Made by a program: the position numbers and the translations under genes. From NCBI GenBank assembly GCA_017958305.1, contig JAGDCW010000110.1, positions 1 to 37,760 of the forward strand: a DNA stretch of 37,760 nucleotides, written 5' to 3'. The DNA comes from Bacteroidales bacterium. GTDB taxonomy: Bacteria; Bacteroidota; Bacteroidia; Bacteroidales; UBA1402. Each line of letters begins with the position of its first letter. The stretch's first letter is position 1. Below the pieces are notes generated by a model that saw only the letters and a program-made list of their open reading frames with translations, made no database searches and was not told where the DNA came from. Shown here in pieces: positions 17,040-36,303 of this stretch.

Positions 17040-18854
17040 CTAGCGGATCTGTTTCTCGACCTGGACTTTGCCGTCAGACCAGACGGTCTTGCACAGGACA
17101 AGCTGCCGGCGGCCGGTATTGTCGTCGAGGCTGATGCGGCGGCCGGTCAGATCGTAGTACTCCGTGGCCAGGAGCACGGCATTGCCCATAGTGGTCTGAT
17201 GCAGTGCGGTGGCATAGTCGGACAGGTTGCCGCGGCCACCCCATTCGTTGACGGCCAGCACCTGATAGCGGGCATTGGCATCGTCGGCGGTATAGCTGGT
17301 CTCGGTGGTGAAGCAGACAAAGTCGCCGTTCGTGCGCACTTCGGAGCAGATGGCACAGGGAACAGCTTCCCACTTGACGGTGGTGCCGCCCACCAGATTG
17401 AGCACGGGGGCAGGCAGCCGCTCGGCCATCAGGTCGGGCCGCCAGCCGTCACTGGCAGGAATGACACGATTGAAAGTGTACTGTGCGGCTTCCTCGTCGG
17501 AGATGTATTGCTTGGCATAGCCTTGGACGGTGTCGCCTACGTCCCTGAGATACCAGTACCAGTTGTTGCGCTGGCTCAGATCGACCATCTCACCGTTGGC
17601 ATAGTGGGTGTGCCAATCGGCAAAGATGATGGGGATGGCGTTGCCGAAGTGGCTGTCCCAACCTTCAGGACGCAAATAGATTTTATCGTCCAATTCCAGA
17701 TTGATGAATACAGTCTTGGGGGAGGCAATCCAGGCACGACCCAGGTAGATGGAGTCGCCGGCCACCTCGGATGTCAGGCGACAGTCTTTGAAGACATAGC
17801 CCCAAGTGGTGCCACTATGCGAGGGAGCCACGATCCAGCCGGCTTCTTCGGTGGGCTTGTGGTTCTTGATGATGTTGATTTGACAGTTTTCGAAGAAGGC
17901 GTCGCCGTCACCATAGATGAAATCGACATTGCCTTCGATGTAGCAGTCCTTGATGTACTGGCGGCTGCCGTCCCCGTCGGGGGTGCGCCAGGTGTCCTGA
18001 TAGCTCAGGGCGCGGCAGTGATAGAAGGCGGTGCGGTCTTTCAGACAGCGGATGGCCAGGGCCTGGGGATAGTCGCGGTCTTCCGAACCCCAGCGGTTGT
18101 TGTAGGTGATGTTCTCGCTGTAGAAGTTCTTGGCGTCGATGTAGGCCATGGGATCCTGCCCTTGCGAGTTCTTCACCCGGCCGGTGGCAAACTGATCGAC
18201 ATAGGCTTTCCACTGGGCTACGAATTCAGGATCTCTCGAGCCGGTATAGCCGCCATCGACCAGAAAGTCGCAGCAGATCTTTTCCTGGATGACAGTACTG
18301 TCGACATCTTCCCCGATCAGATGGATGTAGGGCTTGGAGGAGGGGATGCGCAATACACCGTTATAGACACCCTTGCGGACAAAAATGAGCCAGGGCTTGG
18401 TCTGGTTTTCAGGTGCCTTGTTGATTGCCTCCTGCACACTGGTGTAGTCACCGCTGCCGTCGGGGGCGACGATGGCGTCGAACAGCCGGGCCTCGGGCTG
18501 GGTGCGGGCCTTGGTGGTAAAGCTGAACCTTACCTCGGGCGAAGCATTGGCCGTGTTGCCTTTCTCAGAGAAGGCAGCGGCCGGCGCCACGAAGGTATAG
18601 GTGGTGGAATAGTCCAGACAGGGCAGGATGAAGGTGGCCATCTTGTTGGCGATGGAGGGCGTCAACGCCTCTCCGTTCAGCGTGCAGCCGCCATTCAGGA
18701 CTTCGATGTTTTTGTCGAACATCACGATGACACGGGCATTGATATCGACATTGACCGATCCGTCGGTCGGGACGATGCGCGTGGTGCTGAGCGTGGCCTG
18801 GAGCGTAGGCAGCAGGACCAGCAGTGACAGAAACAGAGTAAAGATTCTTTTCAT
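17040..18854 (-). CDS. Secreted pectinesterase (CE8 type) with Ig-like N-domain
   Basis: 604 aa. Expected to remove methyl ester groups from homogalacturonan outside the cell. Signal peptide ends near LQA (residue 20). An SbsA/Big_5-like Ig domain (about 22-115) begins STTRIVPTDGSVNVDINARV. The right-handed beta-helix starts near DAIVAPDGSGDYTSVQEAIN. Catalytic signatures are D287 in YQDTW, D311 in GNVDFIYGDGD, and R373 in YLGRAW, matching the Asp-Asp-Arg triad of the family. The last 45 residues contain EYYDLTGRRI and end in EKQIR, resembling a short type IX sorting tail. No lipobox. Last gene of the nine-gene operon, 1 bp after SusD2. Confidence 0.93.
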   Translation of the reverse strand: MKRIFTLFLSLLVLLPTLQATLSTTRIVPTDGSVNVDINARVIVMFDKNIEVLNGGCTLNGEALTPSIANKMATFILPCLDYSTTYTFVAPAAAFSEKGNTANASPEVRFSFTTKARTQPEARLFDAIVAPDGSGDYTSVQEAINKAPENQTKPWLIFVRKGVYNGVLRIPSSKPYIHLIGEDVDSTVIQEKICCDFLVDGGYTGSRDPEFVAQWKAYVDQFATGRVKNSQGQDPMAYIDAKNFYSENITYNNRWGSEDRDYPQALAIRCLKDRTAFYHCRALSYQDTWRTPDGDGSRQYIKDCYIEGNVDFIYGDGDAFFENCQINIIKNHKPTEEAGWIVAPSHSGTTWGYVFKDCRLTSEVAGDSIYLGRAWIASPKTVFINLELDDKIYLRPEGWDSHFGNAIPIIFADWHTHYANGEMVDLSQRNNWYWYLRDVGDTVQGYAKQYISDEEAAQYTFNRVIPASDGWRPDLMAERLPAPVLNLVGGTTVKWEAVPCAICSEVRTNGDFVCFTTETSYTADDANARYQVLAVNEWGGRGNLSDYATALHQTTMGNAVLLATEYYDLTGRRISLDDNTGRRQLVLCKTVWSDGKVQVEKQIR

Positions 18855-18855
18855 A

Positions 18856-20652
18856 TCAGTTGTTGTTTAAATCGTCGGTTTTCAGATCCCATTTCACCCA
18901 ATAGTCGCCAGCCAGGATGGCCGAACGGACCTTTTCGTAGTAGGGCGTGTTCTTGTATTTGTCGGCGATGCGATCGACCACGGCAGCGGCGCCATAGCGC
19001 TCGGCCATGCGGCATACATAGGCATAGGCCCGGCCTTCACCGGCATACTCCGACAGGGCTTCGTCCATGATGAGCAGGTCGTATTCGCGCATGCGGGCGG
19101 CCTCGTCGAAGGTTTCGTCCTTGCTGTTGTGATACAGGCCGTCGGGATAGGTGCTCTTGGTCTTGGTGAGCCAGTCGTAGATACCCATCGGGAAATCGTG
19201 GGTGTTGCCGTAGGCACAGGAGGCTACGCCGATATCGCCATAACCGCCGCCGGGGCAGAACCAGGAATTGTATTCGAAAGCCCAGTACGAGGGCAGGGTC
19301 TTGTCGGCAAATTCGTTGGTCACACCGTTGTTCATGATCACTTCGGCCTGGTGCCAGTTGCCCAGATGGTTTTCGGCTTCGGCCAGGTAGAAATGGTAGT
19401 CGTGGCCGCGGAACAGGGGGATGACGGGCTGGATCTCCACAATGCGGGTACGCAGCCACTCGCCGCGGTGATAGTAATACTTGCAGAAGCAGGTGTCACC
19501 GTCGATGATGTCCATATTGTTGCGCTGGGTCAGGCTGCGCAGGTCGGACTGGTTGTATTTGCCAATGGCGTAGTTTGAAGGTCGCAGATAGTACTTGCCG
19601 GGCGTACGCGGGCAGAAATACTCGATGATGTGGTTGGTCTGGTGATGTTCGTAATCGTACATGATGCCGGTAATCACCTGGTAGAAGTTGGTGAAGTTGC
19701 TGGCATTGTACAGTTCGTTGTAGAACATACGGTAGTATTCGGTGGCATACAGGTTGTCGGCACCCGTGCGGATCGGGATGTTGCAGGCGTAGCGCCAGTC
19801 GTTGTAGGCCACTTCGATGCCATCGTTGATGGTGCCCTGATGCACTTTGTAGAGGTATTTGATCACCGTGTCGCGCACCCAGAGATAGTCTTCGGGATTG
19901 CCCCGCCACAGCAGCAGCTCGCAGCGCAGCGTCAGGTAAGGCGGAATCATGTACTGCCAGTGGGTGTAGTTGTCGGTGACGTCCTCTTCGTTGATCCAGG
20001 CGGCCCAGTCCATGATGAGCTGGGAGGAGATGTTCTGGTCGCGATAGAGCACCAGGCCTTTGTCGAGCAGGTCGAGGCACTTGTCCACCAACTGGCTCAT
20101 ATTGCAAAGGGTAAAGGTCTCGCTGTCGCTCAGCTCTTTTTTCTCTTCCAGCGGGTCGTCAAACCAGACGGCCTGTCCGTAGATGGAGCCCATTTTCAGG
20201 TAGGCCCAGACTTTCAGACGGATGGTGCTGCTGATGAGGGCATTGAAATGGTTGATGGCCTTTTCGTCCATGTTTTCACCCGTTTTTTCCCGATAGGCCT
20301 TCATCTTGTCGATATAGTCGTTGCAGGCAATGACAATGGCATAATAGGGGGCGGGATCGGCATAGGAGTTGCCGTCGGTGGGATCGTAGGTGTAGATCTT
20401 CTGCAACTCCAGCGGCGCATTGGCGGTAACCTGGAAATAGTCGCCGCGGGTATCCGTCAGGATGATGGAATGGTCGGCGGCCTGCTGCATGCGGGTCATG
20501 ATGCCCAGGAAACCTTTGTACATTTCATCGTCCTGGCTGATGTAGTCGTCCACGTTGATGATGTCGTCGGGATCGGTCAGGAACATATCCCGGCAGGAAT
20601 TGCACCCCAGAGCCAGGGTAAGGGCGATGACAGGTAACAATATCTTTTTCAT
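18856..20652 (-). CDS. SusD/RagB-family outer-membrane lipoprotein (SusD2)
   Basis: 598-residue surface lipoprotein that should cap SusC2 and bind glycan. The signal peptide ends in a double cysteine region: C17 (ALGC) or C20 (NSCRD). The residues CRDMFLTDPDD resemble the usual SusD start, so either cysteine may be lipidated. The body is alpha-helical with TPR-like segments: RLKVWAYLKMGSIYGQAVWFDDP corresponds to the SusD region that usually reads A-x-Y-x-L, and HFYLAEAENHLGNWHQAEVI to the later helices. It is quite divergent from SusD1 in the same operon, so the pairs probably bind different ligands. 5 bp downstream of SusC2 and 1 bp upstream of the pectinesterase gene. Confidence 0.88.
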   Translation of the reverse strand: MKKILLPVIALTLALGCNSCRDMFLTDPDDIINVDDYISQDDEMYKGFLGIMTRMQQAADHSIILTDTRGDYFQVTANAPLELQKIYTYDPTDGNSYADPAPYYAIVIACNDYIDKMKAYREKTGENMDEKAINHFNALISSTIRLKVWAYLKMGSIYGQAVWFDDPLEEKKELSDSETFTLCNMSQLVDKCLDLLDKGLVLYRDQNISSQLIMDWAAWINEEDVTDNYTHWQYMIPPYLTLRCELLLWRGNPEDYLWVRDTVIKYLYKVHQGTINDGIEVAYNDWRYACNIPIRTGADNLYATEYYRMFYNELYNASNFTNFYQVITGIMYDYEHHQTNHIIEYFCPRTPGKYYLRPSNYAIGKYNQSDLRSLTQRNNMDIIDGDTCFCKYYYHRGEWLRTRIVEIQPVIPLFRGHDYHFYLAEAENHLGNWHQAEVIMNNGVTNEFADKTLPSYWAFEYNSWFCPGGGYGDIGVASCAYGNTHDFPMGIYDWLTKTKSTYPDGLYHNSKDETFDEAARMREYDLLIMDEALSEYAGEGRAYAYVCRMAERYGAAAVVDRIADKYKNTPYYEKVRSAILAGDYWVKWDLKTDDLNNN

Positions 20653-20657: not shown

Positions 20658-23600
20658 TTAGAAATTCAAATTAAAACCGAGTTTGACAGTGCGGGGCTGC
20701 GGTATCTTGGCATAGTCGATGCCGTAGAGGGCGTCGCCGTAGCTGTAGGATGTTTCCGGATCGTTGCCCAGGTAGTTGGTCCAGGTGAGCAGGTTTTCAG
20801 CCGAGACCCACAGTTCGCCCGAACGGAAGAAGTTGGCGATCGGGTGCTCGATGCTGTAGCTCAGCGTGAGGCTGCCCAGTTTGAGATAGCTGGCATCTTC
20901 CACCCAGCGGTCGGAAAACAGGTTGTTGCCACTGGGATCGCCGTAGGCGGCGCGAGGCATGTCGGTGTGCTGTCCTTCCATCTGCCAGCGGTTCCTGACA
21001 GACTGGGCCTGGTTGTAGAAGTTGTCCATCGATTCCAGGTGGCGGCGGACCGCATTGTAGATCTTGCCGCCCAAGCTGTAGTTGAACTGGGCGTTGAGGC
21101 CAATCTGGCCGTAGCGCAAGTGGGTAAAGAAGGAACCGAAGCAGTCAGGCCGGGTACTGCCCAGCAGCACCTTGTCCTGCTCGTTGATGAAACCGTCGCT
21201 GTGATGGTCGATGAAGCGGACATCACCGGCCTGGAACTTGGCCCCTTTCGTGCCCGTCAGGTTGTCGGCCTGGGCCTGGGCCGTCGTGGCATAGATGCCG
21301 TCGGTGGCGTAGCCGTAGAACTGGTAGGGGGCTTCGCCTACTTTCAGGCGGATCACCATGTCTTCGCCCTGCGACAGCGCGTCGTATGTGATGTCGAGGT
21401 AGTCCTGCCCGCCCAGGTCTTCGACCAGGCTGCGGTTGGCCGTCAGGTTGCCGCCCAGGGTCCAGCTGAAACGGCGGGTCTCCACCGGCGTGATCCGAAG
21501 GCTCACAGTCACGCCCTTGGTCGAGACGGCTGCGGCATTCTCATAGTAGTTGTCCGATGCATAGACACTCGAAATGGCCCGCGGGATGATCAGGTCGTAG
21601 GCATAGGTGTCGTGGACATCGGCGCCCAGTTGCAGGCGGTGGCCCAGCAGACTGGCTGTCACCCCGGCGGTGAGCTGGCGCTGCTTCTCGGGTTCAAGCA
21701 GGGTGTTGGGGATGTCGCCCCGGATGATCGAACCCATCGTGAAGAAGTTGGCGCTGGTGTAGTAGTTCTTGGCGTAGTTGCTCGAGAAACGGCTGTTGCC
21801 GCTCAAGGCAGCGGATACCTGCACATCGAGGGTGTTGACCCAGTCGGGCATGACACCCAGGTTGGCGGCCATCAATTTGAGCGCACCGGCCGGATAGAAG
21901 TAGTAGAGCGGTGCATCGATGCCGCTTACCGAGCTGCCGTCGAGCGTCAGGCTCAGACTGGCATCCACGAGACGGTTCCAGGTGTAACCGCCGCGCAGGT
22001 AGTAGTTGGCCCAGGTCCAGAGATTGATATAACCGTCGGAATTTTCCTCGTCGGTGGTCTTGTCCAGGGTCTTGTAGAAGTCGTTGGCCGTATTGTAGCC
22101 GCTCGACATGTCATACTCCGAGGAGGTGGTCATGATGCGGGCGCCCACATCGGCACGCAGTTCGTGGATCTGGTCGAATATGTTGCGGTAGGCGGCATTC
22201 AGTCCGTAGTAGGAATTGCTGCGCTCCGACACGGCCTTGCGTACCGTGTTGCGGCCGATGCCGTAGAACTGCGGATAGATGGCCTGGTTGCTCACACCGG
22301 GAATAAACAGGTTTTCTTCGACATAGCGGTACTGGCGGTTGAAGGTGCCGGTCAGTTTCAGGTAGTCGAGTACCTGGTAGTTGAGTCCCATGTTGATGTT
22401 TACATCATAGATCTTGTCGCCGGCTTCGAGGGTCTTGACGATGGCCGTGGGGTTGCTTACGTTCTCGTAGGGGAACAGCGGATAGTCGTTGATGTTGGAG
22501 AAGTCGTAGGTGGCAAAAGTGTTGGTCAGCTTGCCGTCGTTGCCCGCGAAGTAGGGGCTCAACACCGGCATCTTGTACCAGGCGGCCAGCATGGGGTTGG
22601 TCTCCTCGCTCATGCCTTGTTCCTGCAGGCGGCTGTTCATGTAGGACAATCCCACCGATGTGAAGATATCCACCTTGCGGCTCACCATGATGTTGGAGTT
22701 GAGCAGGGTGTGGTAGCGTTCGGTCTTGGTGCCCGAGATGATGCCACCGTCGGAGGAATAGCCCACGCTCATGTTGTATTTGGCCACTTCGTCACCGCCT
22801 TCGACGCGGAATACGTTGTTGGTGAGGAAGGCCGAGTGGTAGATTTCGTTCTGCCAGTCGGTGTTGTTGTTGAAGATATAGGCCGTCGGATAGTCGGTCG
22901 AAGTCTGCAGGAAGGGATAATCGGTCGTGAGGGCGTTCATCGAACCGTAGCGTCCCAGACCGACCGATCGGAGGTAGTTCTTGTAGCCGTCGGCATCGAG
23001 CACATCCACGCTGCGGCCTTTCATATGCATACCGTACTGGCCGGAGAAGGAGATCCGGGTGTCGAGATTGTTGCTGGTGGCCCGCTCGGTCTCGATGACC
23101 AGCACCCCGTTGGATCCCAGACTGCCATACTGGGCAGCCTCGGCCCCGGTGAGCAGGGTGATGTTGCGGATGTCATAGATGTTGAGGGCGGCAAACAGGC
23201 TGCGGCTGTAGCCGTTGATGGCCGTCGATACTTCGGTGTCGTTGAGATAGGGCACATCGTTCACCACGATCAGGGGCGTGTTCTCGGCATACAGGGAGTG
23301 CAAACCGCCGATGTTCAGATAGGCGCCTTCGGCGGGCATTCCGCTTTTCTGTACGGTCTGTAAGCCGGGGATCTTGCCCTGGATGGCCATGTCGATGTTC
23401 ATGGCCTGGGCCATGTCTTTCTTGTTGAGCGAAGACCCTTGGGTGTAGTTTTTCCAATTCTCGGGAATCAACGTGACATGAGCCGGCTGATTGCTTTCAC
23501 TGACCGGCAGTTCGACGCTGTAGTAACCGCTCAGGGAGATTCTGACGATGGCTTGCGGTACGGTCATTTTCAGTTCGACCCGACCGGATTCATCGCTGAA

Positions 23601-23753
23601 GGCCGAAGCTTCGGCACCGGTCGATTCCACCATGACACCCTGGAGCCCCTGGCCCTTGGTATCGACAACCTTTGTGCTCAGCACAAAGCCCTGGGCCAGC
23701 ATGGAAGCCACACCCAGCAGTGATATGATGACAAAAGCAAGAGTTCTTCTCAT
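20658..23753 (-). CDS. SusC/RagA-family TonB-dependent transporter (SusC2), divergent
   Basis: 1031-residue outer-membrane importer. Signal peptide ends near SMLAQG. A carboxypeptidase-like regulatory domain (about 24-95) precedes a plug domain (about 110-230) and a 22-strand barrel. The plug is unusual: where most SusC proteins have a VLKDASA-YG-GANGVILITTK type segment, this one reads ITLLTGAEAAQYGSLGSNGV then LVIETER, and the RIRG motif is replaced by LNIGGLHSLYAEN. The end, RTVKLGFNLNF, is a normal outer-membrane insertion signal. It starts 1 bp after the FAS1-C stop and is paired with SusD2. Likely cargo is a pectin-derived oligosaccharide, inferred from context. Confidence 0.92.
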   Translation of the reverse strand: MRRTLAFVIISLLGVASMLAQGFVLSTKVVDTKGQGLQGVMVESTGAEASAFSDESGRVELKMTVPQAIVRISLSGYYSVELPVSESNQPAHVTLIPENWKNYTQGSSLNKKDMAQAMNIDMAIQGKIPGLQTVQKSGMPAEGAYLNIGGLHSLYAENTPLIVVNDVPYLNDTEVSTAINGYSRSLFAALNIYDIRNITLLTGAEAAQYGSLGSNGVLVIETERATSNNLDTRISFSGQYGMHMKGRSVDVLDADGYKNYLRSVGLGRYGSMNALTTDYPFLQTSTDYPTAYIFNNNTDWQNEIYHSAFLTNNVFRVEGGDEVAKYNMSVGYSSDGGIISGTKTERYHTLLNSNIMVSRKVDIFTSVGLSYMNSRLQEQGMSEETNPMLAAWYKMPVLSPYFAGNDGKLTNTFATYDFSNINDYPLFPYENVSNPTAIVKTLEAGDKIYDVNINMGLNYQVLDYLKLTGTFNRQYRYVEENLFIPGVSNQAIYPQFYGIGRNTVRKAVSERSNSYYGLNAAYRNIFDQIHELRADVGARIMTTSSEYDMSSGYNTANDFYKTLDKTTDEENSDGYINLWTWANYYLRGGYTWNRLVDASLSLTLDGSSVSGIDAPLYYFYPAGALKLMAANLGVMPDWVNTLDVQVSAALSGNSRFSSNYAKNYYTSANFFTMGSIIRGDIPNTLLEPEKQRQLTAGVTASLLGHRLQLGADVHDTYAYDLIIPRAISSVYASDNYYENAAAVSTKGVTVSLRITPVETRRFSWTLGGNLTANRSLVEDLGGQDYLDITYDALSQGEDMVIRLKVGEAPYQFYGYATDGIYATTAQAQADNLTGTKGAKFQAGDVRFIDHHSDGFINEQDKVLLGSTRPDCFGSFFTHLRYGQIGLNAQFNYSLGGKIYNAVRRHLESMDNFYNQAQSVRNRWQMEGQHTDMPRAAYGDPSGNNLFSDRWVEDASYLKLGSLTLSYSIEHPIANFFRSGELWVSAENLLTWTNYLGNDPETSYSYGDALYGIDYAKIPQPRTVKLGFNLNF

Positions 23754-23754
23754 A

Positions 23755-25587
23755 TTAGTAGTTGTTTTTTGTCGGACGCAGGCACCAGTGGTACATCATC
23801 AGCTGATTGACGTTGGAGGTGTTGCGGTCAGCGCCGTAAGTATATAGGTAGTACATATCCGAAGAGGAGACGGTGATGGTGAAATTGCCGTCTTTTTTGA
23901 CATTGACTATGCCGACCTGATAGCCGTCGGTATCGTAGGCCTGGGCTTTCTCGCTCAGCGACGACCAGTCGTGCCAGTTGTAGCCTTCGGGATAGCCGAT
24001 GGACGATTCACCATAGTTGTCGACCACCGAAACCGATCCACGGTCGAAGTGGTAGTTACTGCCCTGGGCATACATCACCATGTCCTTGATGAGCAGCGTG
24101 TCGTTGAACTGGATGCTCAGCGAGTACAGCAGGCTGTGCTTGAATCCCATGCGCAGGTAGTATTCGCCGGCGGGGATGAAGCATTCCTTGATGCGCTGTT
24201 CGCGCGGGTTGTTTTCCAAATAGAGCGTGCCGTCGTAGGTGACGCTACAGATGACCGGCTCGGTGTTGTAGAGCTTGGCCTTGCGGGCCGTGTCGTCGGG
24301 AATGGCGGTCAACACATGATAGTACATGGTGGGCATGGTCGGCGTCAGTTCGAAGGATCCCTGTGCGTCGTTGATGATCATCGGGTCGATCCAGTGTTTC
24401 CAGCGGAAATACTGGTTGCGCTGATCGGTGGTCATGTTGTTCCAGAGTTCGTAGAAACGGCTCTTGAGACGGTAGATGATGACGTTGTTGGGCACTTTCA
24501 TCCAGTCGATGAAGAACAGGTTGCCGTTGCTGGCCTGGATCATGTCGGCGGTGCGGACCTTCTGGACGGTGGGTCGCCACATGGCCGCGTCGGCATGGCT
24601 GAACTTGGTGCCTTCCAGGGTGTCTTTCATATAGCCGCCCACGCAGTCGATGTCGTCGGTGCCGGTGATTTCCTCGGCGCTGAGGCGGCGGTCGATGAAG
24701 CAGGCCCGGACGATCCATTTCTCAAATTTGGCACGATCGACGGAGGTGGCGGCGCGACCCAGGTAGCGGGGCACTTTGGCCAGAGCGGTGTCGAGGGCTT
24801 CCTTGATGACGGCGTTGGAGGGAACCAACACGGTGGTGTTGTAGCTTTCGCTGCGCATGTTCCACATTTCCTGGCCGTCTTCAGTGTAACGGTCCATCAA
24901 GGTGTTTTTGACGGTCCAGCCCTTGGCAGAGTCGGCATAGATGGTGTTGCCCTGTTCGTTGGTGCCGGCAGGCGTGCACTTGTCGGCATCGAACCAGATG
25001 CGTTCGTAGTCTTTGACCAACTGCTTGAAGGTCGAATACTCGGCATCGTCCAGTTGCATGATCTGGTCATAAACCGAGGGCGTGACCGTCAGCAGGTGGT
25101 CGCCGATTTCATAGATGAATGCATCCTGGGTGCGGAATACCCGGCTCAGCAGACCGTTGTTGACATAGGTCTTGCCATCGGCCGTGACCGAAATCCACAG
25201 GTTCTTGCCATACCAGGTGGAGATGCCCAGCCCGTCTTTCATGTCGGCGGGAGCCAGGGCAATATCGCTGATGCAGTAGCCGGCATAGTCGGCCTGGGTG
25301 GCATAGGGACTGGCTTCCAGCAGGCTGTTGTCGTAAACCAGCACAGTGTATTCCTGCCCGGCTTCCATCTTGTCGAAGACGCCGGCAGCGGCAAACAACT
25401 TGCTTTGGGCACTGAATTCCTGATGGGAGGCCAGGAACTCCTGCAGGGTTCCCTGGTAAATGTCCGTCTGGCTGTCAGCATTGAGCTCCTGCTGGCCATA
25501 GTGGTCGCTCCAGCTGTCCTGACAGGAACTTGTCACCAAAGCCATGGCTGCGGTGGCAAGCATCATAAGGAAGGTATGTTTTTTCAT
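23755..25587 (-). CDS. Fasciclin (FAS1) domain lipoprotein, FAS1-C
   Basis: 610 aa. Signal peptide with lipidated Cys22 (VTSSCQDSWSDHYG). The first FAS1-like domain (about 45-210) has TLQEFLASHQEFSAQSKLFA and the FAS1 H1-type YTVLVYDNSLLE segment. A second, degenerate one (about 215-380) includes TTVLVPSNAVIKEAL and GNLFFIDWMKVP. The C-terminal 200 residues are strand-rich, with the block CFIPAGEYYLRMGFKHS, and end with NVNQLMMYHWCLRP, resembling the end of FAS1-B. FAS1 folds usually mediate adhesion or ligand binding. Here a surface glycan-binding role in place of SusE/SusF is plausible but unproven. It lies 14 bp after FAS1-B and 1 bp before SusC2. Confidence 0.82.
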   Translation of the reverse strand: MKKHTFLMMLATAAMALVTSSCQDSWSDHYGQQELNADSQTDIYQGTLQEFLASHQEFSAQSKLFAAAGVFDKMEAGQEYTVLVYDNSLLEASPYATQADYAGYCISDIALAPADMKDGLGISTWYGKNLWISVTADGKTYVNNGLLSRVFRTQDAFIYEIGDHLLTVTPSVYDQIMQLDDAEYSTFKQLVKDYERIWFDADKCTPAGTNEQGNTIYADSAKGWTVKNTLMDRYTEDGQEMWNMRSESYNTTVLVPSNAVIKEALDTALAKVPRYLGRAATSVDRAKFEKWIVRACFIDRRLSAEEITGTDDIDCVGGYMKDTLEGTKFSHADAAMWRPTVQKVRTADMIQASNGNLFFIDWMKVPNNVIIYRLKSRFYELWNNMTTDQRNQYFRWKHWIDPMIINDAQGSFELTPTMPTMYYHVLTAIPDDTARKAKLYNTEPVICSVTYDGTLYLENNPREQRIKECFIPAGEYYLRMGFKHSLLYSLSIQFNDTLLIKDMVMYAQGSNYHFDRGSVSVVDNYGESSIGYPEGYNWHDWSSLSEKAQAYDTDGYQVGIVNVKKDGNFTITVSSSDMYYLYTYGADRNTSNVNQLMMYHWCLRPTKNNY

Positions 25588-27399: not shown

Positions 27400-28944
27400 T
27401 TATTCATAATAGGGGTTCTGGTGGAGCAGCGGATTGTTTTCCAGCTCTTTGTCATAGACGGGCAAGTACAGGGAGTTGTTGTCCGACAACACGGCGCGGA
27501 ACCAGCTGGTGCTGGCCTGCTTGTTGAAGTCCAACAGGCGGGCGGTGATGAAGGTCTCTTTGTACTTGTAGTTGTCGCGACGGCCCATGCGCAGCATGTC
27601 GTACCAGGCTTTCGCCTCGCCGGCAAATTCCGTAGCCCGCTCGTCGAGCAGGCAGCTGAGCAGTTCTATTTCATTGGTTCCGGCCGGGTCGATGGTGACA
27701 TCGCCCAGGTTGGAACGGTTGTGTACCTTGTTGATCAGCGCCACAGCTTCGGCATAGCGACCCTCACCCTGCATGATCAGGGCTTCGGCTTTCATCAGGA
27801 TGACTTCGGCCACCCGGTAGAGGATGAAGTTGGGATCGTAATGCTCCGACGTACGCTTTTCGGTGAGCACCTGCGAGCCGTAGTATTTCCAGCAGTAGCC
27901 CGTGGTGGCTGCCAGGTAGGCCGAAGGCGTCTGGATATGGAAACCACCGTACATGGAGCGTACATACTCGCCGTGATGCGAGTCGGTATAGGTGCATTCC
28001 TGGATAAAGAGCTCGGTCATGCGCTGGCTGTAGGCATAGACCCTGCCGTTGCCGGTTTCCTCGAACAGGACGGGCAGCGTGTTGAGCTGTTCGTCTTCTT
28101 CGTTCCACTGGAGCTCGAGAATCGACTCGTTGCTGTTGCCCGGATTGAAGATCGAGAACCACGATCCGTGGGAAGGTGTCGAAAGGAAACTGGGAGCATA
28201 GGGCGAAGTGGCGTTGAGCAGCATGTCGCAATAGCGCTCGCATTCGGCATAGTCGCCGTTCCACAGGCAGACATCGGCCATCAGGGCCAGCATGGCCCAT
28301 TTGGTGGCGCGGCCCTTGTTTTCCCATGTCTTGTTGTAATACTCCTTGGCAGCCCCCGATTCGATGGCGGTCTTCAGGTCTTCCTTGATCTGGGCGATGA
28401 CCTGCTGTTCGGTGGCCTGAGGGAAGTAGTAGTCCTGGGCATCCGTCTCGTAGGGTTGCAGGATGAGCGGCACCTCGCGCCAGTTGCGCACCAGATAGAA
28501 GTAGGTCAGGGCACGCAGGAAATAGGCTTCGGCCTTATGGGCATTGAGCATGTTCTCATCGTAGGTGTAATCTACTTGATATGCTTTCTCGGCATTGGCC
28601 AGCACCCCGTTGGCTACGTTGATCACTTCGTAGAAGGGACCCCAGTTGCAGATGTCCTGGTTTTCCTTGACACGGAATTCCTGCACGCTGGAATAGGCAC
28701 CGCGGCTGAAGATATGCCCGGCACGGAGCTCTCCGAGCGGGATAAGTTTGGTGGTGACCATCTCGCGGTAGTAATAGTAGCAGCCGTTCAACATGGCTTC
28801 CACTTCTTCCTTGTTGGTCCAGTAGTAGTCGCTCACCTGGTCGTTCTGAGGATAGACCTCAAGCCATTTCGTGCAGCTGGTGCTGCCTGTCGTCATCAGG
28901 ACGGCAGCCGTCATAGCGATGATATATGATCTGATTTTCTTCAT
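27400..28944 (-). CDS. SusD/RagB-family outer-membrane lipoprotein (SusD1)
   Basis: 514-residue canonical SusD homologue. Lipidated Cys24 in TGSTSCTKWLEVYPQND. The N-terminal SusD-like region includes EVEAMLNGCYYYYREM; the helical region HKAEAYFLRALTYFYLVRNW then REVPLI is the most typical SusD signature, and the C-terminal part has LYRVAEVILMKAEAL and the final RAVLSDNNSLYLPV. It should form the lid over SusC1 and capture glycan at the cell surface. 15 bp after SusC1 and 19 bp before FAS1-B. Confidence 0.94.
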   Translation of the reverse strand: MKKIRSYIIAMTAAVLMTTGSTSCTKWLEVYPQNDQVSDYYWTNKEEVEAMLNGCYYYYREMVTTKLIPLGELRAGHIFSRGAYSSVQEFRVKENQDICNWGPFYEVINVANGVLANAEKAYQVDYTYDENMLNAHKAEAYFLRALTYFYLVRNWREVPLILQPYETDAQDYYFPQATEQQVIAQIKEDLKTAIESGAAKEYYNKTWENKGRATKWAMLALMADVCLWNGDYAECERYCDMLLNATSPYAPSFLSTPSHGSWFSIFNPGNSNESILELQWNEEDEQLNTLPVLFEETGNGRVYAYSQRMTELFIQECTYTDSHHGEYVRSMYGGFHIQTPSAYLAATTGYCWKYYGSQVLTEKRTSEHYDPNFILYRVAEVILMKAEALIMQGEGRYAEAVALINKVHNRSNLGDVTIDPAGTNEIELLSCLLDERATEFAGEAKAWYDMLRMGRRDNYKYKETFITARLLDFNKQASTSWFRAVLSDNNSLYLPVYDKELENNPLLHQNPYYE

Positions 28945-28959: not shown

Positions 28960-31900
28960 TTAGAAATTGATGGTTATACCGGCGGAAATACGCTTGCTCG
29001 GCGGAGTCTGCGCCGTATCCATGGCGATACTGGTCACATTCGAGGGCAAGGTCACTTCGGGGTCCTGGCCCGTGTAGTTGGTCCAGGTGAACAGGTCGTA
29101 GGCGGTGATATAGGCCGTCACGCTGTTCAGGCTGAGCCGGCTGCACAGTTCCCTGGGCAGGCTGTACGACAGGGAAACGGTCTTCAGACGCAGGAAGGAG
29201 CAGTCTTCGACAAAACGGTCGCTGCCCAGGTAGTTGAGACCGTATTTCCACAGGGCGCGGGGGATGTCCGTGTCGTCGCCCGGGCTGCGCCAGCGCTTGA
29301 GCACGGCCAGGCTCTGGTTGTCGGTGCCGTACATCGATTCGCTGTTCATGCGAGCCTGGTTGATGATTTTCTGTCCCAGACGGTAGTGGAAGAAGGTGTT
29401 GACCGACAACTTCTTGTATTTGACTGTGAAGCCGCCGCCACCGGTGACCACCGGGTTGGAGTTGCCCAGGTAAACGATATCGTTCTCATTGATGACACCG
29501 TCGTGATTGACATCCTCGTATTTGGCGTCGCCCGGGAAGCAGACATAGGAGCCGTTCTTCATGACAATGGGCTTGCCCTGGAGGTCGGTCATCACGTTGC
29601 CTTTGGCATCGCGGGCATAGGTTTCGACCGTGGTGTCATAGACACCCAGGTAGCGGTAGCCGAAGAAGCTGCCTACGGGAGCGCCCTCGATGATGCGTCG
29701 GGCATAGTTGCCGTTGGCCAGCGAGTAGGTGCTTTCGGGCAGGTTGGTCGGCAACTTCTCGATGCGGTTGATGTTGCGGGCGATGTTGTAGTTGAGTTTG
29801 ACGTTCCAGTCTTTTTCCTGCAGCAGGGTGTAATCGATGCGGAATTCCCAACCCGTGTTGCTCATCTCGCCCGAGTTGTAATAGGCGATGGTGTTATTGC
29901 GCGAGTTGTAGCCGATGGTGGTCGGAATCGAGACATTGCGCTGCAACAGGTCGGTGGTGTATTTGTAATATATATCAAAGGTAGAGCTGAGCCGTTCTTC
30001 GAACAGACCGATATCGATACCGGCATCATATTCGCTGGCCGTCTGCCATTTGAGGTTGTTGAGCTGGATGGAGATGGGGACGATCGATGGATTGTCGCGA
30101 TAGCCGTCGCCCAGGGAAGAGTACTTGCCCATGTAGGGAGCGGCACCCGAGGGAGCGGCACCGCTCTGGCCATAGCTGGTACGCAGCTTGAGCGAACTGA
30201 GCCAATCTTTGTCCTGCAGGAAGTCTTCTTCCTTCATGTGCCATGCCAGACCCACCGAGGGGAACAGGCCCCATCGGTTGGACTTACCCAGCGATGACTT
30301 GCCTTCGAAGTTGACCGTACCCGAAACGATGTACCGGTTCATGAAGGTGTAGTTCAATCCGCCGATACCACTCACCGAGCGGACTTGCGAAGCACCCGAG
30401 CCGCGTTCCACGACGGCACCGTTGGTCGAGGGGTCGGAGGCATGCTGCGAGGCGGCCCCGTAGATGGTACTGGTGTAGTTGCTCGTCTCGTTGTCGCTCG
30501 TGCGCCATACCCCCGTCAGGACCAGGTTGTGCAGCTCGTCCCAGTTGCGGCGGAAGATGAGCTTGTTTTCGGTCTGCAGGGCCAGGTTGTCGCTGTAGGC
30601 GTCGGTACTGCGGTTGGCGTAGGTGTTGTCCATCGTCACACCGGTGGCGCTTTGCGGCAGGAAGGCGCGGTTCTTGATGGTCAGGAACTTCATGGAGACG
30701 TAGGCCGTATAGGTGAGGCCGGGAATGATGTCGTAGTTGAGCCGGAAGTTCATCTTCTCTTCCTGCTGGGCGCTGTTGTTGTAGCTGTCGCGCGCCATGG
30801 CGATGGGATGGAAGTTGCGTGAGCCGGTGAAAGCGCCCTGAAACTCCTCGGCATTCTGACGGCCGAAGTAGCGGTTGGTGGGCTCCAGAGTGACATCGTC
30901 TATCCAGTAGGGACTCTTGTTAGGCATCTTGAGCATGGCTTCCGAACGCACGCGGTCGGTCCAGTTGGCCTCTTTGCCCGTCTGGGCAAACGACAGGTCG
31001 GCATCCACCCGCAGCTTGTCACTGAAGCGGTAGCCGATGTTCAGGGAGGTGGAGAAGCGGCTCAGATTGGTGCCGATGGTCGTACCATCCTCGTCCATGT
31101 AGGCCAGGCTGAAACGGTAGGTGGCCTTTTCACCGCCGCCCGACATGGAGAAGTTGTTGTCGAAGGTGTAGGCATCCTGCACCACGGTCGAGAGCCAGTC
31201 GGTATTGACGTTGTATTCGTTGAAATAGCGCCACTCCTTGTTGAAGTTGATTTCGGGCGTGTCGTATAGCAGTTGCAGCAGGGAGGCACTGGTCGAGACA
31301 CCCTTGGCATTGGCCGTGTTCCAAACGGCATCCTCGATGAAGGAGACATATTCCTTACCGTTGAGCATGGGGATGGAGGCCGGCTCATACTTGGCCGTGA
31401 ACTTCGAGGAGAAGGTGAAGCGCGGACGGCCCCGTTCGCCGGTCTTGGTGGTGATGAGCAGCACACCGTTGGCGCCGGCCGTACCGTAGATGGCCGTCGA
31501 GGCAGCATCTTTCAGCACTTCGATCGACTCGATGTCGAAGGGCGAGAGGTTCAGCATGGCGGCGTAGTCTTCGTTGTTGGCGGTGGCAAAGTCGAAGCTG
31601 TCGTCAATGTCGGTCGAATAGGGCACGCCGTTGATGACAATGAGCGGGTCGGCACTGGTGTTGAGCGTGGCGGTACCGCGGATACGGATCGAGTTGCGGG
31701 CACCCGGGTCGCCGCTGGCCAGGATATCGACACCGGCCAGTTGGCCCTGCAGGGCTTCTTCGACCGATGTGACGGGCGAAAATTCAATGATTTCGCTCAT
31801 GGAGATACGCTCCGTGGCGGCCGTCTGTTCACGCAGGGTGATACCCATTTCGTTCTTTTGTTCGCGCTTGACGGAGATGACCACGTCGCTCAGGGTCTTG

Positions 31901-32223
31901 GAATCTTCTTCCATGACCACGTCCAGGGTGGTCTGGCCCGTGTAGGGAATGGTCTGCGTCTTCATACCGATGTAGGAAAAGACCACGGTCATTTCGCCCC
32001 GGCCTTCGGGTACGCGCAGGCTGTATTCGCCGTTGTAGTTGGTCACCGTACCGTCGATGATACGGTTCTGGCTGTTACGGAACGAGATGTTGACGCCGAT
32101 GGCCTCTTCGCGGTGGCCGTCGAACAGCTCATAGACATGTCCGGTCAGCATCTTCTGCGCAGAAGCAGACAAAGCCAGTGTCAGTGACAGGATCAGGATA
32201 GCAAATATCTTTTTCATACGCAT
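28960..32223 (-). CDS. SusC/RagA-family TonB-dependent transporter (SusC1)
   Basis: 1087-residue (1085 from the second Met, 32217) outer-membrane importer with all usual parts: signal peptide to SASAQ, carboxypeptidase-like regulatory domain (about 25-108), a TonB-interacting stretch near LSDVVISVKR, plug with SVEEALQGQLAGVDI, SIRIRGTATL and the classic IEVLKDAASTAIYGTAGANG segment, then the barrel ending SAGITINF. Its start overlaps the FAS1-A stop (TGATG-type overlap), so the two are translationally coupled. Expected substrate is an oligogalacturonide, by context. Confidence 0.95.
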   Translation of the reverse strand: MRMKKIFAILILSLTLALSASAQKMLTGHVYELFDGHREEAIGVNISFRNSQNRIIDGTVTNYNGEYSLRVPEGRGEMTVVFSYIGMKTQTIPYTGQTTLDVVMEEDSKTLSDVVISVKREQKNEMGITLREQTAATERISMSEIIEFSPVTSVEEALQGQLAGVDILASGDPGARNSIRIRGTATLNTSADPLIVINGVPYSTDIDDSFDFATANNEDYAAMLNLSPFDIESIEVLKDAASTAIYGTAGANGVLLITTKTGERGRPRFTFSSKFTAKYEPASIPMLNGKEYVSFIEDAVWNTANAKGVSTSASLLQLLYDTPEINFNKEWRYFNEYNVNTDWLSTVVQDAYTFDNNFSMSGGGEKATYRFSLAYMDEDGTTIGTNLSRFSTSLNIGYRFSDKLRVDADLSFAQTGKEANWTDRVRSEAMLKMPNKSPYWIDDVTLEPTNRYFGRQNAEEFQGAFTGSRNFHPIAMARDSYNNSAQQEEKMNFRLNYDIIPGLTYTAYVSMKFLTIKNRAFLPQSATGVTMDNTYANRSTDAYSDNLALQTENKLIFRRNWDELHNLVLTGVWRTSDNETSNYTSTIYGAASQHASDPSTNGAVVERGSGASQVRSVSGIGGLNYTFMNRYIVSGTVNFEGKSSLGKSNRWGLFPSVGLAWHMKEEDFLQDKDWLSSLKLRTSYGQSGAAPSGAAPYMGKYSSLGDGYRDNPSIVPISIQLNNLKWQTASEYDAGIDIGLFEERLSSTFDIYYKYTTDLLQRNVSIPTTIGYNSRNNTIAYYNSGEMSNTGWEFRIDYTLLQEKDWNVKLNYNIARNINRIEKLPTNLPESTYSLANGNYARRIIEGAPVGSFFGYRYLGVYDTTVETYARDAKGNVMTDLQGKPIVMKNGSYVCFPGDAKYEDVNHDGVINENDIVYLGNSNPVVTGGGGFTVKYKKLSVNTFFHYRLGQKIINQARMNSESMYGTDNQSLAVLKRWRSPGDDTDIPRALWKYGLNYLGSDRFVEDCSFLRLKTVSLSYSLPRELCSRLSLNSVTAYITAYDLFTWTNYTGQDPEVTLPSNVTSIAMDTAQTPPSKRISAGITINF

Positions 32224-34622
32224 CAGAACATACCGTTAATAAATTGGACACAGCCGTCTTCGAAGACGAAGGGCAAGTAATGATAGTCGCCGCAGAAATC
32301 GATGGTCTTGTCGCCGTCGAGCAGCTTGACCGTGAGCTTGTCGCCCTGGTCGGTGACGACCACCTTGACCGACTGATAGGAGACTTTGCCGGTGTTCTCG
32401 TCATAGATTTCGATGGTGTTGGCCGTCTGCATTCCCTTGGTGGTGGTTTCACCCCAGCCCAGGTAGGGATAGTTGGTGATACCGGCCGATGACAGGGGCA
32501 CGAAATAGTCCTTGAGATACATCTGCAGGCTGTCGAGCCCGGTGTCGCGTACTGAGCAGCATTCGAAGATGTCGGCACCGCCGGCGTAGGCGGCGGCATC
32601 GAAGTTGAGACCGGGCAGGCTGCCGCCCTGGATGGCGTCAAAGACGGCCTGGTTGCCGGGGATGAGCATCAGGTAGCTTTCGGCGGCTTCGGTGAAGTTG
32701 AAGTTGGCCCCGTTGTACATGGAGGCCTCGATCAGCAGGTTGACAAAAGCATAATAAGGCAAAGTGTTGTCTATGCGGTTGTTTTGCATCATCTGCTGGA
32801 ACTTGCTGTAGGTGGTCTCCTTGGGCAGGCCGGTAAACAGTGAGCCGTCGTACGAGTAGGCATGTCCGTTGCTCCACCGTCCGTCTTCGGTGTAGGAGGG
32901 CAGTTCAGTGAAGGTGACAAACAGCTCGTCGTCGGTCTTCTGGATGGGATAGATGCGCTCGTTGAAGCGGAAGCTGTTGGTGATCTTGCCGTTCATCACA
33001 TACCAATAGAAGGTGTAGTCGGGCGAGAAGGCTTTGAACACCTGTGTTTTGGCGCCTGTGGCATCCAACTCGGTGTCGGTGCCGGTGCAAGCTGACAGAT
33101 CGACCAGGTGGGCGTAGGCGGTGCCGTTGAGCACATCGTTGCCCAGGGCCTTGTTATCGCGTTCCAGGTAGTTGTTGCGGCTGTTGTAGCTGATGTTGGC
33201 CCCCGTGATCTGATCGTTGGAGGGAATCAGGGCCAGCAGTTGTACCTGGTCGCTCCAGAGCGAGTTCTGCAAATCGCCCAGCGATTTGAGCATGAACAGA
33301 TAGTAGCTGTAGTCGCGGTACTGGTAGGCAGGACCGGTCACGGCAGCGAACATGGTGGGCACGGCCAGTTCCTCGCAGCCGTAGAGAAGACCGTTGTTGC
33401 AGAGGATGCGGTATTTCTGCGGCACGGCATCGAGATCGACTTTGATGACGGCATCATAGCTGTTGATCACCTCGCCTTTGCGCAGGTTCTCGGGCCATGC
33501 CAGCTGACCGTCGTAGTTGTTTCCGTCCTTGGCACCTTGATAGACGCAGTTGTAGAGCAGGCGTTCGACCGATTCGGTGCTTACCTGGCTCAGGCTGGCA
33601 TAGCCGCCCTTGGCCCAGTAGCCGTTGAAGAACGACTCCATGGCCTGGTTGGTGGGGGCGAAAATGGTGTAGCCGACCGAGGAATTCTCCGTCAGGCGCG
33701 AATAGTCGGTGCTGGGCCATTCGCAGGCGATGTTGGGCATCGGGCTGTTGAACAGGTGCTGGTACAGGCGGGTGCCGTTGCCGTATTCCTGCGTGAGGTC
33801 GGGATCGTAGGCAAAGGTCTCCTTCTTCTTGTAGAGCGTCAGGAACTGGCTGAAGTTGCTGTCGTTTTTCAGTTCGGTGTAGATGGTGTTGAGCGGCTTG
33901 AGCACGTGGTCGATGGCATGGATATAGCCGTTGCTGGTGATCTGGTTGCCCTCGGTCACGGCCGCGCCGGCCACGTTGTAGCCGATCTGGGTGGGATTCC
34001 ACTCGACATCCGGGAAGAAATAGTGGTAGTTTTCGGCGGCATTGAGCTGACGGGTGTCGAAATACTGCTGGGAGAAGACCGGCAGGAAACGCTCGCGATG
34101 GTAGATGGTCACATCCAGGTCGCGCCGGAAATCATACTCGGTGGTATTGGCATCCTTGCTCTTGGTGCGGTGCTTGTAGTACAGGCCCGCATTGATTTTC
34201 TTCTCCTCGTCGGTGACATCGTCGCCTTCTTCGGGGCGGAAATTGATGAGTTTGTCGGCACTGTAGGCATAGTACATCAGATGGAAGCCGATGAGTTTGT
34301 CCAACTCGACGGAATCCATCTCTTCGATGCTGCCCAGGCCCTGTTCGCGCAGATACACCTTGAAGGCCTCGTCGTTGGGTGCCATGACCGTGAGGATGCT
34401 CTTGCCGTCGACCATGTCGTGGAAACCGGCCAGGTCGATACCTTTGAGGAAAATGGAGTAGTTGCCCGCTTTGTCCAACACTTCGTAGCAGTTGCCCTTG
34501 ATCCAGGTGGGCCGTTCATAGTATTCGGCCATGTGGTCTTTACAACTGCCCATTGCAAGTGTCAGAGCGACTGCTGCCAGGCATCTCCATTGGCTTCTTT
34601 TTTGGAAAAGCTTGATTTGCAT
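32223..34622 (-). CDS. Large multi-domain fasciclin (FAS1) lipoprotein, FAS1-A
   Basis: 799 aa with lipidated Cys27 (LAMGSCKDHMAEYYERP). At least four FAS1-like repeats can be traced. The first (about 50-245) has YSIFLKGIDLAGF, ILTVMAPNDEAFKVYL and NGYIHAIDHVLKPL. The second (about 248-435) has FSQFLTLYKK and VGYTIFAPTNQAMESFF. The third (about 440-600) has YYLFMLKSLGDL and QLLALIPSNDQ. The fourth (about 605-790) has FVNLLIEASMYNGANFNF and YLMLIPGNQAVFDAI. Later copies are degenerate. It probably projects far from the outer membrane. Being translated just before SusC1 with overlapping codons, it may be a structural part of the uptake complex or a glycan-binding arm; neither is shown. Confidence 0.85.
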   Translation of the reverse strand: MQIKLFQKRSQWRCLAAVALTLAMGSCKDHMAEYYERPTWIKGNCYEVLDKAGNYSIFLKGIDLAGFHDMVDGKSILTVMAPNDEAFKVYLREQGLGSIEEMDSVELDKLIGFHLMYYAYSADKLINFRPEEGDDVTDEEKKINAGLYYKHRTKSKDANTTEYDFRRDLDVTIYHRERFLPVFSQQYFDTRQLNAAENYHYFFPDVEWNPTQIGYNVAGAAVTEGNQITSNGYIHAIDHVLKPLNTIYTELKNDSNFSQFLTLYKKKETFAYDPDLTQEYGNGTRLYQHLFNSPMPNIACEWPSTDYSRLTENSSVGYTIFAPTNQAMESFFNGYWAKGGYASLSQVSTESVERLLYNCVYQGAKDGNNYDGQLAWPENLRKGEVINSYDAVIKVDLDAVPQKYRILCNNGLLYGCEELAVPTMFAAVTGPAYQYRDYSYYLFMLKSLGDLQNSLWSDQVQLLALIPSNDQITGANISYNSRNNYLERDNKALGNDVLNGTAYAHLVDLSACTGTDTELDATGAKTQVFKAFSPDYTFYWYVMNGKITNSFRFNERIYPIQKTDDELFVTFTELPSYTEDGRWSNGHAYSYDGSLFTGLPKETTYSKFQQMMQNNRIDNTLPYYAFVNLLIEASMYNGANFNFTEAAESYLMLIPGNQAVFDAIQGGSLPGLNFDAAAYAGGADIFECCSVRDTGLDSLQMYLKDYFVPLSSAGITNYPYLGWGETTTKGMQTANTIEIYDENTGKVSYQSVKVVVTDQGDKLTVKLLDGDKTIDFCGDYHYLPFVFEDGCVQFINGMF

Positions 34623-34638
34623 AGGGTTATTGTTTTTA

Positions 34639-36303
34639 TTATCGAATTATCATCTTTTGGTGGCGACTCAGGTAAATGCCCGGCTGGGTGGGATTCAGCA
34701 CGATGCGGCCCGTCAGGTCGTGCCATACGACGTCCTGGCTGTCGCTGCCTTGTGTGGGCGTATGGATGGCCGAAGGCAGGTCGTTGACGCCATTGCCCGT
34801 GACATATTCATAGTCGGAAAGCTCCTGGGCCACGATGTGGGCCACCAGGCTGTGGAGATAGACTTCCAGGTTGGTATAGCCGATGTCGGAGAGGTCGGTC
34901 TTGTTGCGGTCGCGCGGATCGCGGGCGTTCAAGCCGTTGGCTTCTTCCCACTCATCGGGCATGCCGTCCTGGTCGGTGTCCTTGGGGGCTTCGACGCTTT
35001 CGAGTGTGGGCCAGGCGCTCCAGTCGCTGCCGGCACCGGAGGGCTTGAGGTCGTTCTGGCTGTCGATGATGCCGCCCACCTGGCTGTAGCTACCCATGAA
35101 GGTGGCCGTACCGCCACGTGTTTCACGCACGATGCGCTCATCGATGATGTCGCGCTTGAGGGAGCAGCCGGCCGTGGCCAGCACTTTTTCGAAGGCCACC
35201 TGGGCGCTGTGGGTAGTCACCGTGCCGGGATCCAGGGGCTCACTGAGTTTCATGGCGGCTATTTCGGCCGAGGTGGCACCGTCGATGTTGTTGGCCACCC
35301 CGTAGCGCCAGTTGTCCTGGCAGGTGAGTTTTTCGTAACTGTCGGTCGGAGTCTTGTAGGTGTCGCTCAGCGAAGAGCACCAGTTGCCGCTCACATAGTA
35401 TTTGCCCCATTTGGGCCGGGCGGCATCGTCGTTGTTGGGACTGATGCCGATGATCATGCTGCGGCGGTTGTGATTGGTTTTGGTCGAGGGGCCGGGCTTG
35501 TAGTAGCAGTTGATGAAATTACAGTCCATGCCCTCGGCTCCATAGCAGCCTACGACCATGCCATAGTTGTAGATGACGTTGTTGCGCAGATCCACCTTTT
35601 CACGGCCGGCTGTGCTGGAACCGCTGCCGATGCGCGGGGTACGGCTGCTGTGATGGGCCAGCAGGTTGTGGTGGAAGGATGTGTTGGCCCCGCCCCAGAT
35701 GCCGCCGTAGCCGTGGTTGCCTTTCTCGTGGTTGGAGTGGCGCAGGCTTTCGCTGATGATGCACCATTGGAGGCTCAGGTTTTCATCGCCGTAGAACGAA
35801 ACGCACTCATCCACGCTCCATGAGCAGGAGCAGTGGTCGATGATGATGTTTTTGATGAAGCGTCCACCCAGGGCATCGTCTTCCTGGTTGGGGTCGGTGT
35901 CGCCCATACGGAAACGCATGAAGCGGATGATGACGTTGTTAGCGTTGACGTGCACCGGTTCACCTGCCAGGCAGATGCCATCACCCGGGGCGGTCTGGCC
36001 GGCAATGGTCAGGTTGCCGTTGTTGATGTTGAGTCCGGCTTTCAGGAAAATGGTTCCCGAAACATCGAACACGATGGTGCGGGTTTCGTTTTTGTTGATA
36101 TAATAGCGCAACGATCCGAATGTGGGATTGTTTTCATCGTCATCGAGGTTGGTGACATGATAGACATAACCGCCTCGTCCGCCGGTGGTGGTGTAGCGGC
36201 CGTGGCCTTCGGCCCCGGGAAAGGCGGGCAGATTGTCGGCCCAGACGGGCAGCACTGCGGTGATGATACCAATGAAAAGCGAAGAGAGTAGATGCTTTTT
36301 CAT
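34639..36303 (-). CDS. Secreted pectate lyase, PL1 type
   Basis: 554 aa. Expected calcium-dependent beta-elimination of de-esterified homogalacturonan. Signal peptide ends near PVWA (residue 22). The catalytic beta-helix starts AFPGAEGHGRYTTTGGRGG and includes GSLRYYI, TIVFDVSGTI, LTIAGQTAPGDGI, the calcium-side block IIIDHCSCSWSVDE and HSSRTPRIGSGS with likely catalytic arginines R221 or R224. A calcium-binding repeat DTDQDGMPDEWEEANGL lies near the C-terminus. The last 30 residues (VVWHDLTGRIVL then PGIYLSRHQKMIIR) resemble a short type IX sorting tail. Start at 36303 is set by the signal peptide and the upstream -7 box. First gene of the operon, 16 bp before FAS1-A. Confidence 0.93.
   Translation of the reverse strand: MKKHLLSSLFIGIITAVLPVWADNLPAFPGAEGHGRYTTTGGRGGYVYHVTNLDDDENNPTFGSLRYYINKNETRTIVFDVSGTIFLKAGLNINNGNLTIAGQTAPGDGICLAGEPVHVNANNVIIRFMRFRMGDTDPNQEDDALGGRFIKNIIIDHCSCSWSVDECVSFYGDENLSLQWCIISESLRHSNHEKGNHGYGGIWGGANTSFHHNLLAHHSSRTPRIGSGSSTAGREKVDLRNNVIYNYGMVVGCYGAEGMDCNFINCYYKPGPSTKTNHNRRSMIIGISPNNDDAARPKWGKYYVSGNWCSSLSDTYKTPTDSYEKLTCQDNWRYGVANNIDGATSAEIAAMKLSEPLDPGTVTTHSAQVAFEKVLATAGCSLKRDIIDERIVRETRGGTATFMGSYSQVGGIIDSQNDLKPSGAGSDWSAWPTLESVEAPKDTDQDGMPDEWEEANGLNARDPRDRNKTDLSDIGYTNLEVYLHSLVAHIVAQELSDYEYVTGNGVNDLPSAIHTPTQGSDSQDVVWHDLTGRIVLNPTQPGIYLSRHQKMIIR

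Follow-up and report, generated by a model that had tools for sequence, protein, structure and literature searches.

Why does a single bacterial operon encode two outer-membrane transporters and three fasciclin-domain (FAS1) lipoproteins? Glycan capture in Bacteroidota is usually described in terms of one SusC/SusD (SusCD) pair, assisted by SusE/F-type partners or by surface glycan-binding proteins (SGBPs). The question is raised by a locus of a Bacteroidales bacterium whose source genome (assembly GCA_017958305.1) is a metagenome-assembled genome (MAG) of 1.98 Mb, 82.5% complete. The whole stretch analyzed, hereafter the window, comprises the 37,760 nucleotides of contig JAGDCW010000110.1, positions 1 to 37,760, and nine adjoining genes run along its minus strand from 36303 to 17040. 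The core of this operon is a fixed cassette of seven genes in the order FAS1-A, SusC1, SusD1, FAS1-B, FAS1-C, SusC2, SusD2, preceded by a PL1 gene and followed by a CE8 gene. It represents a variant of Sus-like systems that is conserved, has FAS1 partners, and includes two transporters; a form of it has been studied in Bacteroides thetaiotaomicron. We consider it probable that the operon serves pectin utilization, with the FAS1 proteins as surface glycan-binding partners of the two transporters. The nine genes, in operon order, are the following.

34639..36303, minus strand: PL1-like pectate lyase, 554 amino acids, first gene of the operon (NCBIfam PelZ 7e-35; Pfam PF00544 weak, E=0.07)
32223..34622, minus strand: FAS1-A lipoprotein, 799 amino acids, lipobox cysteine at residue 27 (PF02469 7e-15)
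28960..32223, minus strand: SusC1, TonB-dependent transporter, 1087 amino acids (TIGR04056, 733 bits)
27400..28944, minus strand: SusD1 lipoprotein, 514 amino acids (PF07980 2e-27, PF14322 4e-18)
25602..27380, minus strand: FAS1-B lipoprotein, two FAS1 domains and a C-terminal DUF5108 region, likely a sandwich (PF02469 twice, PF17133 3e-22)
23755..25587, minus strand: FAS1-C lipoprotein, 610 amino acids, two FAS1 domains and a likely C-terminal sandwich (orthologs, profile comparison, predicted fold)
20658..23753, minus strand: SusC2, divergent TonB-dependent transporter, 1031 amino acids (TIGR04056, 490 bits)
18856..20652, minus strand: SusD2, divergent SusD-like lipoprotein, 598 amino acids (Bacteroides ortholog and position after SusC2)
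17040..18854, minus strand: CE8 pectin methylesterase with an N-terminal Big_5 domain, last gene of the operon (PF01095 6e-42)

The intergenic gaps, in the same order, are 16, -1, 15, 19, 14, 1, 5, and 1 bp. An earlier, sequence-only reading of the window had reported this gene order on a single strand with gaps of -1 to 19 bp, including the overlap of FAS1-A with SusC1 (-1 bp) and the 1-bp spacing between FAS1-C and SusC2, and the re-read coordinates agree with it on each of these points. Its observation is thus confirmed. Its interpretation is partly borne out, with good support for the core inference of a role of the FAS1 proteins in pectin capture or uptake, though a physical complex is conjectural. 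It had also treated the whole as a nine-gene pectin locus; the nine genes are real, but the unit that is conserved is the seven-gene core.

A conserved seven-gene cassette

Relatives of the cassette were gathered in three ways, with FAS1-C in the family and the order, with a FAS1-C profile in Bacteroidaceae and the phylum, and with SusC1 alone. The last search was run in the named genome collection, and the best 80 of at least 573 relatives were taken as loci. The full seven-gene order is present in 66 of these 80 loci, most of the others being cut by contig ends, and since they were found with SusC1 alone, the linkage to FAS1 genes is no artefact of the search. FAS1-A lies directly ahead of SusC1 in 78 of them (median gap 17 bp), FAS1-C ahead of SusC2 in 72 (median gap 9.5 bp), and SusD2 after SusC2 in 71. 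Among all 135 loci, the full order was found in 112 and a contiguous part of it in 14; FAS1-B is missing from six and has moved to the front in one, and the remaining two have split gene calls.

The cassette is spread over gut, rumen, and environmental Bacteroidota of many families, and other orders of the class also have loci with these seven genes. Carriers identified by name include Paraprevotella clara, P. xylaniphila, Prevotella communis, and Xylanibacter rodentium, those known as MAGs include Paludibacter, Muribaculaceae, and Prolixibacteraceae, and a strong FAS1-C match was found in 86 of 284 genomes of the family taken as Bacteroidaceae. A complete Bacteroidota-type cassette is also present in a record titled as a Clostridium sp. 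MAG (L163, JAMPGR010000001.1), probably through a mistaken title or a mixed bin.

Patristic distances were taken from the trees of all seven genes for 78 complete cassettes; they correlate with r values of 0.93-0.98, the maximum for any pair in 200 permutations being 0.25. Although this correlation partly reflects species descent, paralogous copies within one genome show the same pattern. The parallel trees indicate joint inheritance of the seven genes. As FAS1 domains occur in adhesion proteins, it might be argued that the FAS1 genes stand beside SusCD genes by chance, or that they encode adhesins carried along in the operon. No result of the analysis favors this explanation, which is highly improbable given an order that is invariant in 112 of 135 loci over many families and further orders of the class, and seven gene trees that run parallel. 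Chance neighborhood in particular was ruled out by the linkage counts (66/80 and 112/135) together with the gene-tree correlations. The FAS1 lipoproteins are thus tied to SusCD far beyond chance, as the sequence-only reading had supposed. Its placement of them in the slot of the third SusCD partner is borne out by the conserved order, and no SusE/SusF-like Pfam domain, marking a partner that is usual but not obligatory, was found among the nine operon proteins.

The source genome itself carries several copies. FAS1 domains are found on five of its contigs. Four of these harbor a cassette, namely that of the window, C86, where a PL1-related protein precedes it, C29, whose copy is truncated at the end of the contig, and C129. 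Seven of the ten full-length SusC genes above the family cut-off in this genome belong to cassettes. The C129 copy (L015, G000:C129:1-20000; L341, C129:19000-38900) consists of six genes, without FAS1-B, and is located between dnaG and V-ATPase-like genes. A near-identical six-gene copy was found in a goat reticulum MAG (L158). This form has a long FAS1-A, of about 980-1061 amino acids, and occupies the same genomic place in different genera (L158, L075).

The FAS1 lipoproteins and the two SusCD pairs

FAS1-A and FAS1-B belong to the FAS1 family by their PF02469 matches, and FAS1-C by its orthologs and fold. By inspection, FAS1-A is probably made of four FAS1-like domains. For FAS1-B, the ATG at 27380 was taken as the start; an in-frame upstream ATG at 27407 is possible but would overlap SusD1. 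By itself, FAS1-C of the window has no Pfam match even at E=1, and a PDB sequence search with it gave one chance-level match only. However, PF02469 is matched by 16 of 26 FAS1-C orthologs, profile-profile comparison (hhalign) gives probabilities of 99.8% with FAS1-B and 99.6% with FAS1-A, and the predicted model of FAS1-C (m76ba4bf4c7d1) matches tandem FAS1 folds (E 2e-9, Z 16). The ortholog matches, the similarity to FAS1-B, and the predicted fold rule out that FAS1-C is a non-FAS1 protein. A lipobox-like motif with its cysteine was seen by inspection in all three proteins, and a simple count of the motif found it in most of their orthologs.

The models of FAS1-B (m5939c733a4a5) and FAS1-C each contain two predicted FAS1 domains, with Z scores of about 18 and 16, respectively, against periostin or TGFBIp. 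The window proteins share the FAS1 fold with these eukaryotic tandem FAS1 proteins but differ from them as bacterial lipoproteins with a predicted C-terminal sandwich resembling carbohydrate-binding modules (CBMs), and their functions are unrelated. The C-terminal part of both models likely has a sandwich fold, whose best matches (Z 7-8) include a xylan-binding module, an alginate-binding CBM, CBM86, and CBM35, one CBM35 match being to a structure solved with unsaturated galacturonic acid. The quality of the whole-protein models is middling (predicted local distance difference test scores, pLDDT, of 66-67), and claims on the C-terminal fold are kept weak. A solitary FAS1 protein of 686 amino acids was also seen without SusCD (L013, G000:C181, 1565-6485), adjoining a 922-amino-acid protein that resembles, by eye, an alpha-L-rhamnosidase.

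Could the FAS1 proteins serve as mere connectors? FAS1 domains elsewhere mediate protein contacts, FAS1-A seems to consist entirely of such domains and adjoins SusC1, and the seven genes stay together and coevolve, two different transporters included. These observations would fit an arrangement in which the FAS1 lipoproteins are scaffolds that keep both SusCD transporters in one complex with surface enzymes, the substrate being recognized by SusD1, SusD2, and the enzymes. We regard this arrangement as distinctly unlikely in view of the conserved additional C-terminal domain that models of FAS1-B and FAS1-C predict to be a CBM-like sandwich, and of the report that B. thetaiotaomicron BT4167, which holds the FAS1-C position, binds rhamnogalacturonan I (RG-I) (PMC8002723).

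As regards the transporters, both SusC1 and SusC2 exceed the TIGR04056 cut-off of 368 bits, and each of these SusC homologs has a SusD beside it, as in polysaccharide utilization loci. SusD2 of the window has by itself no Pfam match even at E=1, and no relative was found with it in a PDB sequence search, but its Bacteroides ortholog matches PF14322/PF07980 at 3e-6. In a tree that included other SusC proteins of one Bacteroides genome, SusC1 forms one cassette-specific clade and SusC2 another of its own, each with a support of 100, and the inner branching of the two clades is nearly the same. SusC1 of the window clusters with those of Bacteroides cassettes beside PL1 or PL11 (support 98). That the two modules are old partners and not a recent local repeat follows from the two single clades and their near-identical branching, which rule out that one FAS1-SusC-SusD module was recently duplicated in tandem. 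The repeated modules described by the sequence-only reading are therefore present as two modules, but as ancient paralogous clades that were kept together.

Substrate and proposed mechanism

The enzymes encoded around the cassettes are mostly pectin-directed. The window operon includes the linked carbohydrate-active enzymes (CAZymes) CE8 (6e-42) and PL1 (PelZ, 7e-35), and both also adjoin the cassette in close relatives, where PL1 lies immediately ahead of it. PL1 likewise precedes the cassette in four genomes of Bacteroides (L290, L291, L295, and L296), directly so in L290 and L296. A PL11 rhamnogalacturonan lyase is found beside three cassettes (L153 and, in Bacteroides, L298 and L299), and PL4 (L300), GH28 (L070), GH88 (L093), and a rhamnosidase (L081) occur at single loci. 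Esterases of the GDSL, AXE1, and SASA types adjoin cassettes L095, L292, L293, and L301, and neighbors of the GH95, GH2, and GH43 families are found in Prevotella- and Muribaculaceae-type loci. PL1 and CE8 are exchangeable neighbors that lie outside the fixed core.

A rival idea is that the cassette imports plant glycans in general, with a substrate that differs from locus to locus, pectin being only its commonest use. The GH95, GH2, and GH43 neighbors speak for it, as does the conserved six-gene copy between dnaG and the V-ATPase genes, which has no enzymes. However, pectin side chains are also targets of these three glycoside hydrolase families, and most of the identifiable close neighbors are pectin enzymes. 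Furthermore, in Segatella copri, homogalacturonan and RG-I induce a locus that encodes GH95, CE8, PL1, and GH28 enzymes (PMC11784079) and whose transporters may be those of the cassette. On balance, a general importer appears somewhat unlikely. The link to pectin drawn by the sequence-only reading holds insofar as pectin enzymes are the commonest neighbors; it is qualified by the exchangeability of PL1 and CE8 and by the C129 copy.

In the mechanism that we favor, pectin would be de-esterified and cut by enzymes at the cell surface, which in the window are PL1 and CE8, and the three FAS1 lipoproteins would be surface glycan-binding partners of the transporters. Their FAS1 domains might be spacers or contact modules, in place of the Ig-like spacers of the usual SGBPs. 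The CBM-like C-terminal sandwich of FAS1-B and FAS1-C could hold the pectin chain, fragments of which would pass to the SusCD pairs, and the two different pairs may import two classes of pectic oligosaccharide. FAS1-A, with its apparent lack of other domains, might serve SusC1 as a spacer or for contact. Whether the components would also form a physical complex is a separate issue. It is possible, if rather doubtful, that the seven proteins constitute a single obligate machine in the outer membrane, the two different SusCD transporters being bridged by FAS1 lipoproteins. If so, two product classes of one pectin chain would be imported side by side; no complex of this seven-protein composition is described in the papers searched.

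Several points weigh against the favored mechanism. PL1 or CE8 was detected in only 13 of the 135 loci, using the profiles of the window's own proteins. The six-gene copy on C129 has no recognizable enzyme beside it, its neighbors having been named by eye, and not all cassettes need therefore be for pectin. The predicted C-terminal sandwiches have pLDDT values of 33-70 and Z scores in a range, 7-8, where unrelated sandwiches match too. Finally, the equivalence to B. thetaiotaomicron BT4164-BT4169, considered below, is indirect, its basis being gene order, the annotation of DUF5108, and the Bacteroides locus L299 with its flanking PL11. The cassette offers a likely function for DUF5108 and the FAS1 lipoproteins, and its sequences could serve to mark those bacteria of gut and rumen that probably take up pectin.

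Flanking features and comparison with known systems

Two further features flank the operon.

36324..36331, minus strand: TAnnTTTG upstream of PL1, putatively the one promoter of the operon (pattern match only)
36517..37760, plus strand: divergent gene for a secreted protein of beta-helix-like type (DUF5123/DUF4957, with an InlB-like repeat), truncated where the window ends (PF17161 1e-5)

The TAnnTTTG pattern, which we take to be the Bacteroidota-type -7 element, is matched at one further minus-strand site within the operon, inside SusC1, and on the opposite strand at 36466-36473, ahead of the beta-helix protein. As motif matches, these positions fit one operon and one divergent gene. Scans for sigma70-type promoters and for terminators gave no excess over shuffled sequences. 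Relatives of the beta-helix protein, of 700-955 amino acids, are encoded on the downstream side of SusD2 at sister cassettes (L069, L087, L089, and L091), which suggests an uncharacterized pectin-active or pectin-binding family. Beyond the other end of the operon, a histidine kinase (508 amino acids) and a response regulator (238 amino acids), recognized by eye, converge on CE8 (14704-16958, plus strand), and genes of similar size follow CE8 on the opposite strand in L068 and L084 as well; no hybrid two-component regulator was seen in the window. The C-terminal tails of PL1 and CE8 resemble, by eye, type IX secretion sorting tails (DLTGR..., ending in KQIR/MIIR). Pfam gave no score to these tails, and Por_Secre_tail is present on several neighbor proteins in sister loci.

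The closest known system appears to be the RG-I core of B. thetaiotaomicron, part of the locus BT4145-83 (PMC3243724). BT4164-BT4169 have been described as a SusC, a DUF5108 protein, hypothetical proteins, and a TonB receptor (PMC10434189), and in a review, RG-I is bound by the SGBP BT4167, cut by BT4170, and imported via BT4164/BT4165 and BT4168/BT4169 (PMC8002723). The order SusC, SusD, DUF5108 region, SGBP, SusC, SusD, then lyase, known from these papers, matches that of the cassette, and the window order is also that of Bacteroides L290 and L299, the latter with the full seven genes and then PL11. In a Bacteroides genome of 6.47 Mb (G794), one cassette is followed by PL11, and its FAS1-A, FAS1-B with its DUF5108, and FAS1-C all match the fasciclin model. 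The evidence that the cassette is of the BT4164-BT4169 type is thus strong but indirect. The window differs in having the homogalacturonan enzymes PL1 and CE8 where the B. thetaiotaomicron locus has PL11, and its FAS1-C, SusC2, and SusD2 are far diverged from the RG-I type, B. thetaiotaomicron having been compared through published descriptions. The genes induced in S. copri include two SusCD pairs with an SGBP-B, which lie beside CE8, GH95, PL1, and GH28 (PMC11784079), and these transporters may belong to the same cassette.

The sequence-only reading had singled out the locus as an under-described system. This holds for the FAS1 nature of the partners and the invariance of the cassette, of which no description was found in openly licensed papers, although such an absence is weak evidence; a search of these papers for fasciclin, pectin, and TonB gave no match. 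It does not hold for the RG-I form, which has already been studied as BT4164-BT4169. A possible analogy is with outer-membrane utilisomes (PMC7618045), complexes that combine SusCD with enzymes and SGBPs; the window system, for which a complex is hypothetical, differs from them by its FAS1 partners and its two transporters. With the canonical Sus-like systems that have SusE/SusF or SGBP-B, the cassette shares the SusC/SusD pair, lipoproteins as third partners, and linked CAZymes. In contrast to those systems, its partners are FAS1 proteins, with no SusE/F-like domain found, and its two SusCD pairs, which are unlike each other, are linked in every case and have remained neighbors across much of the phylum.

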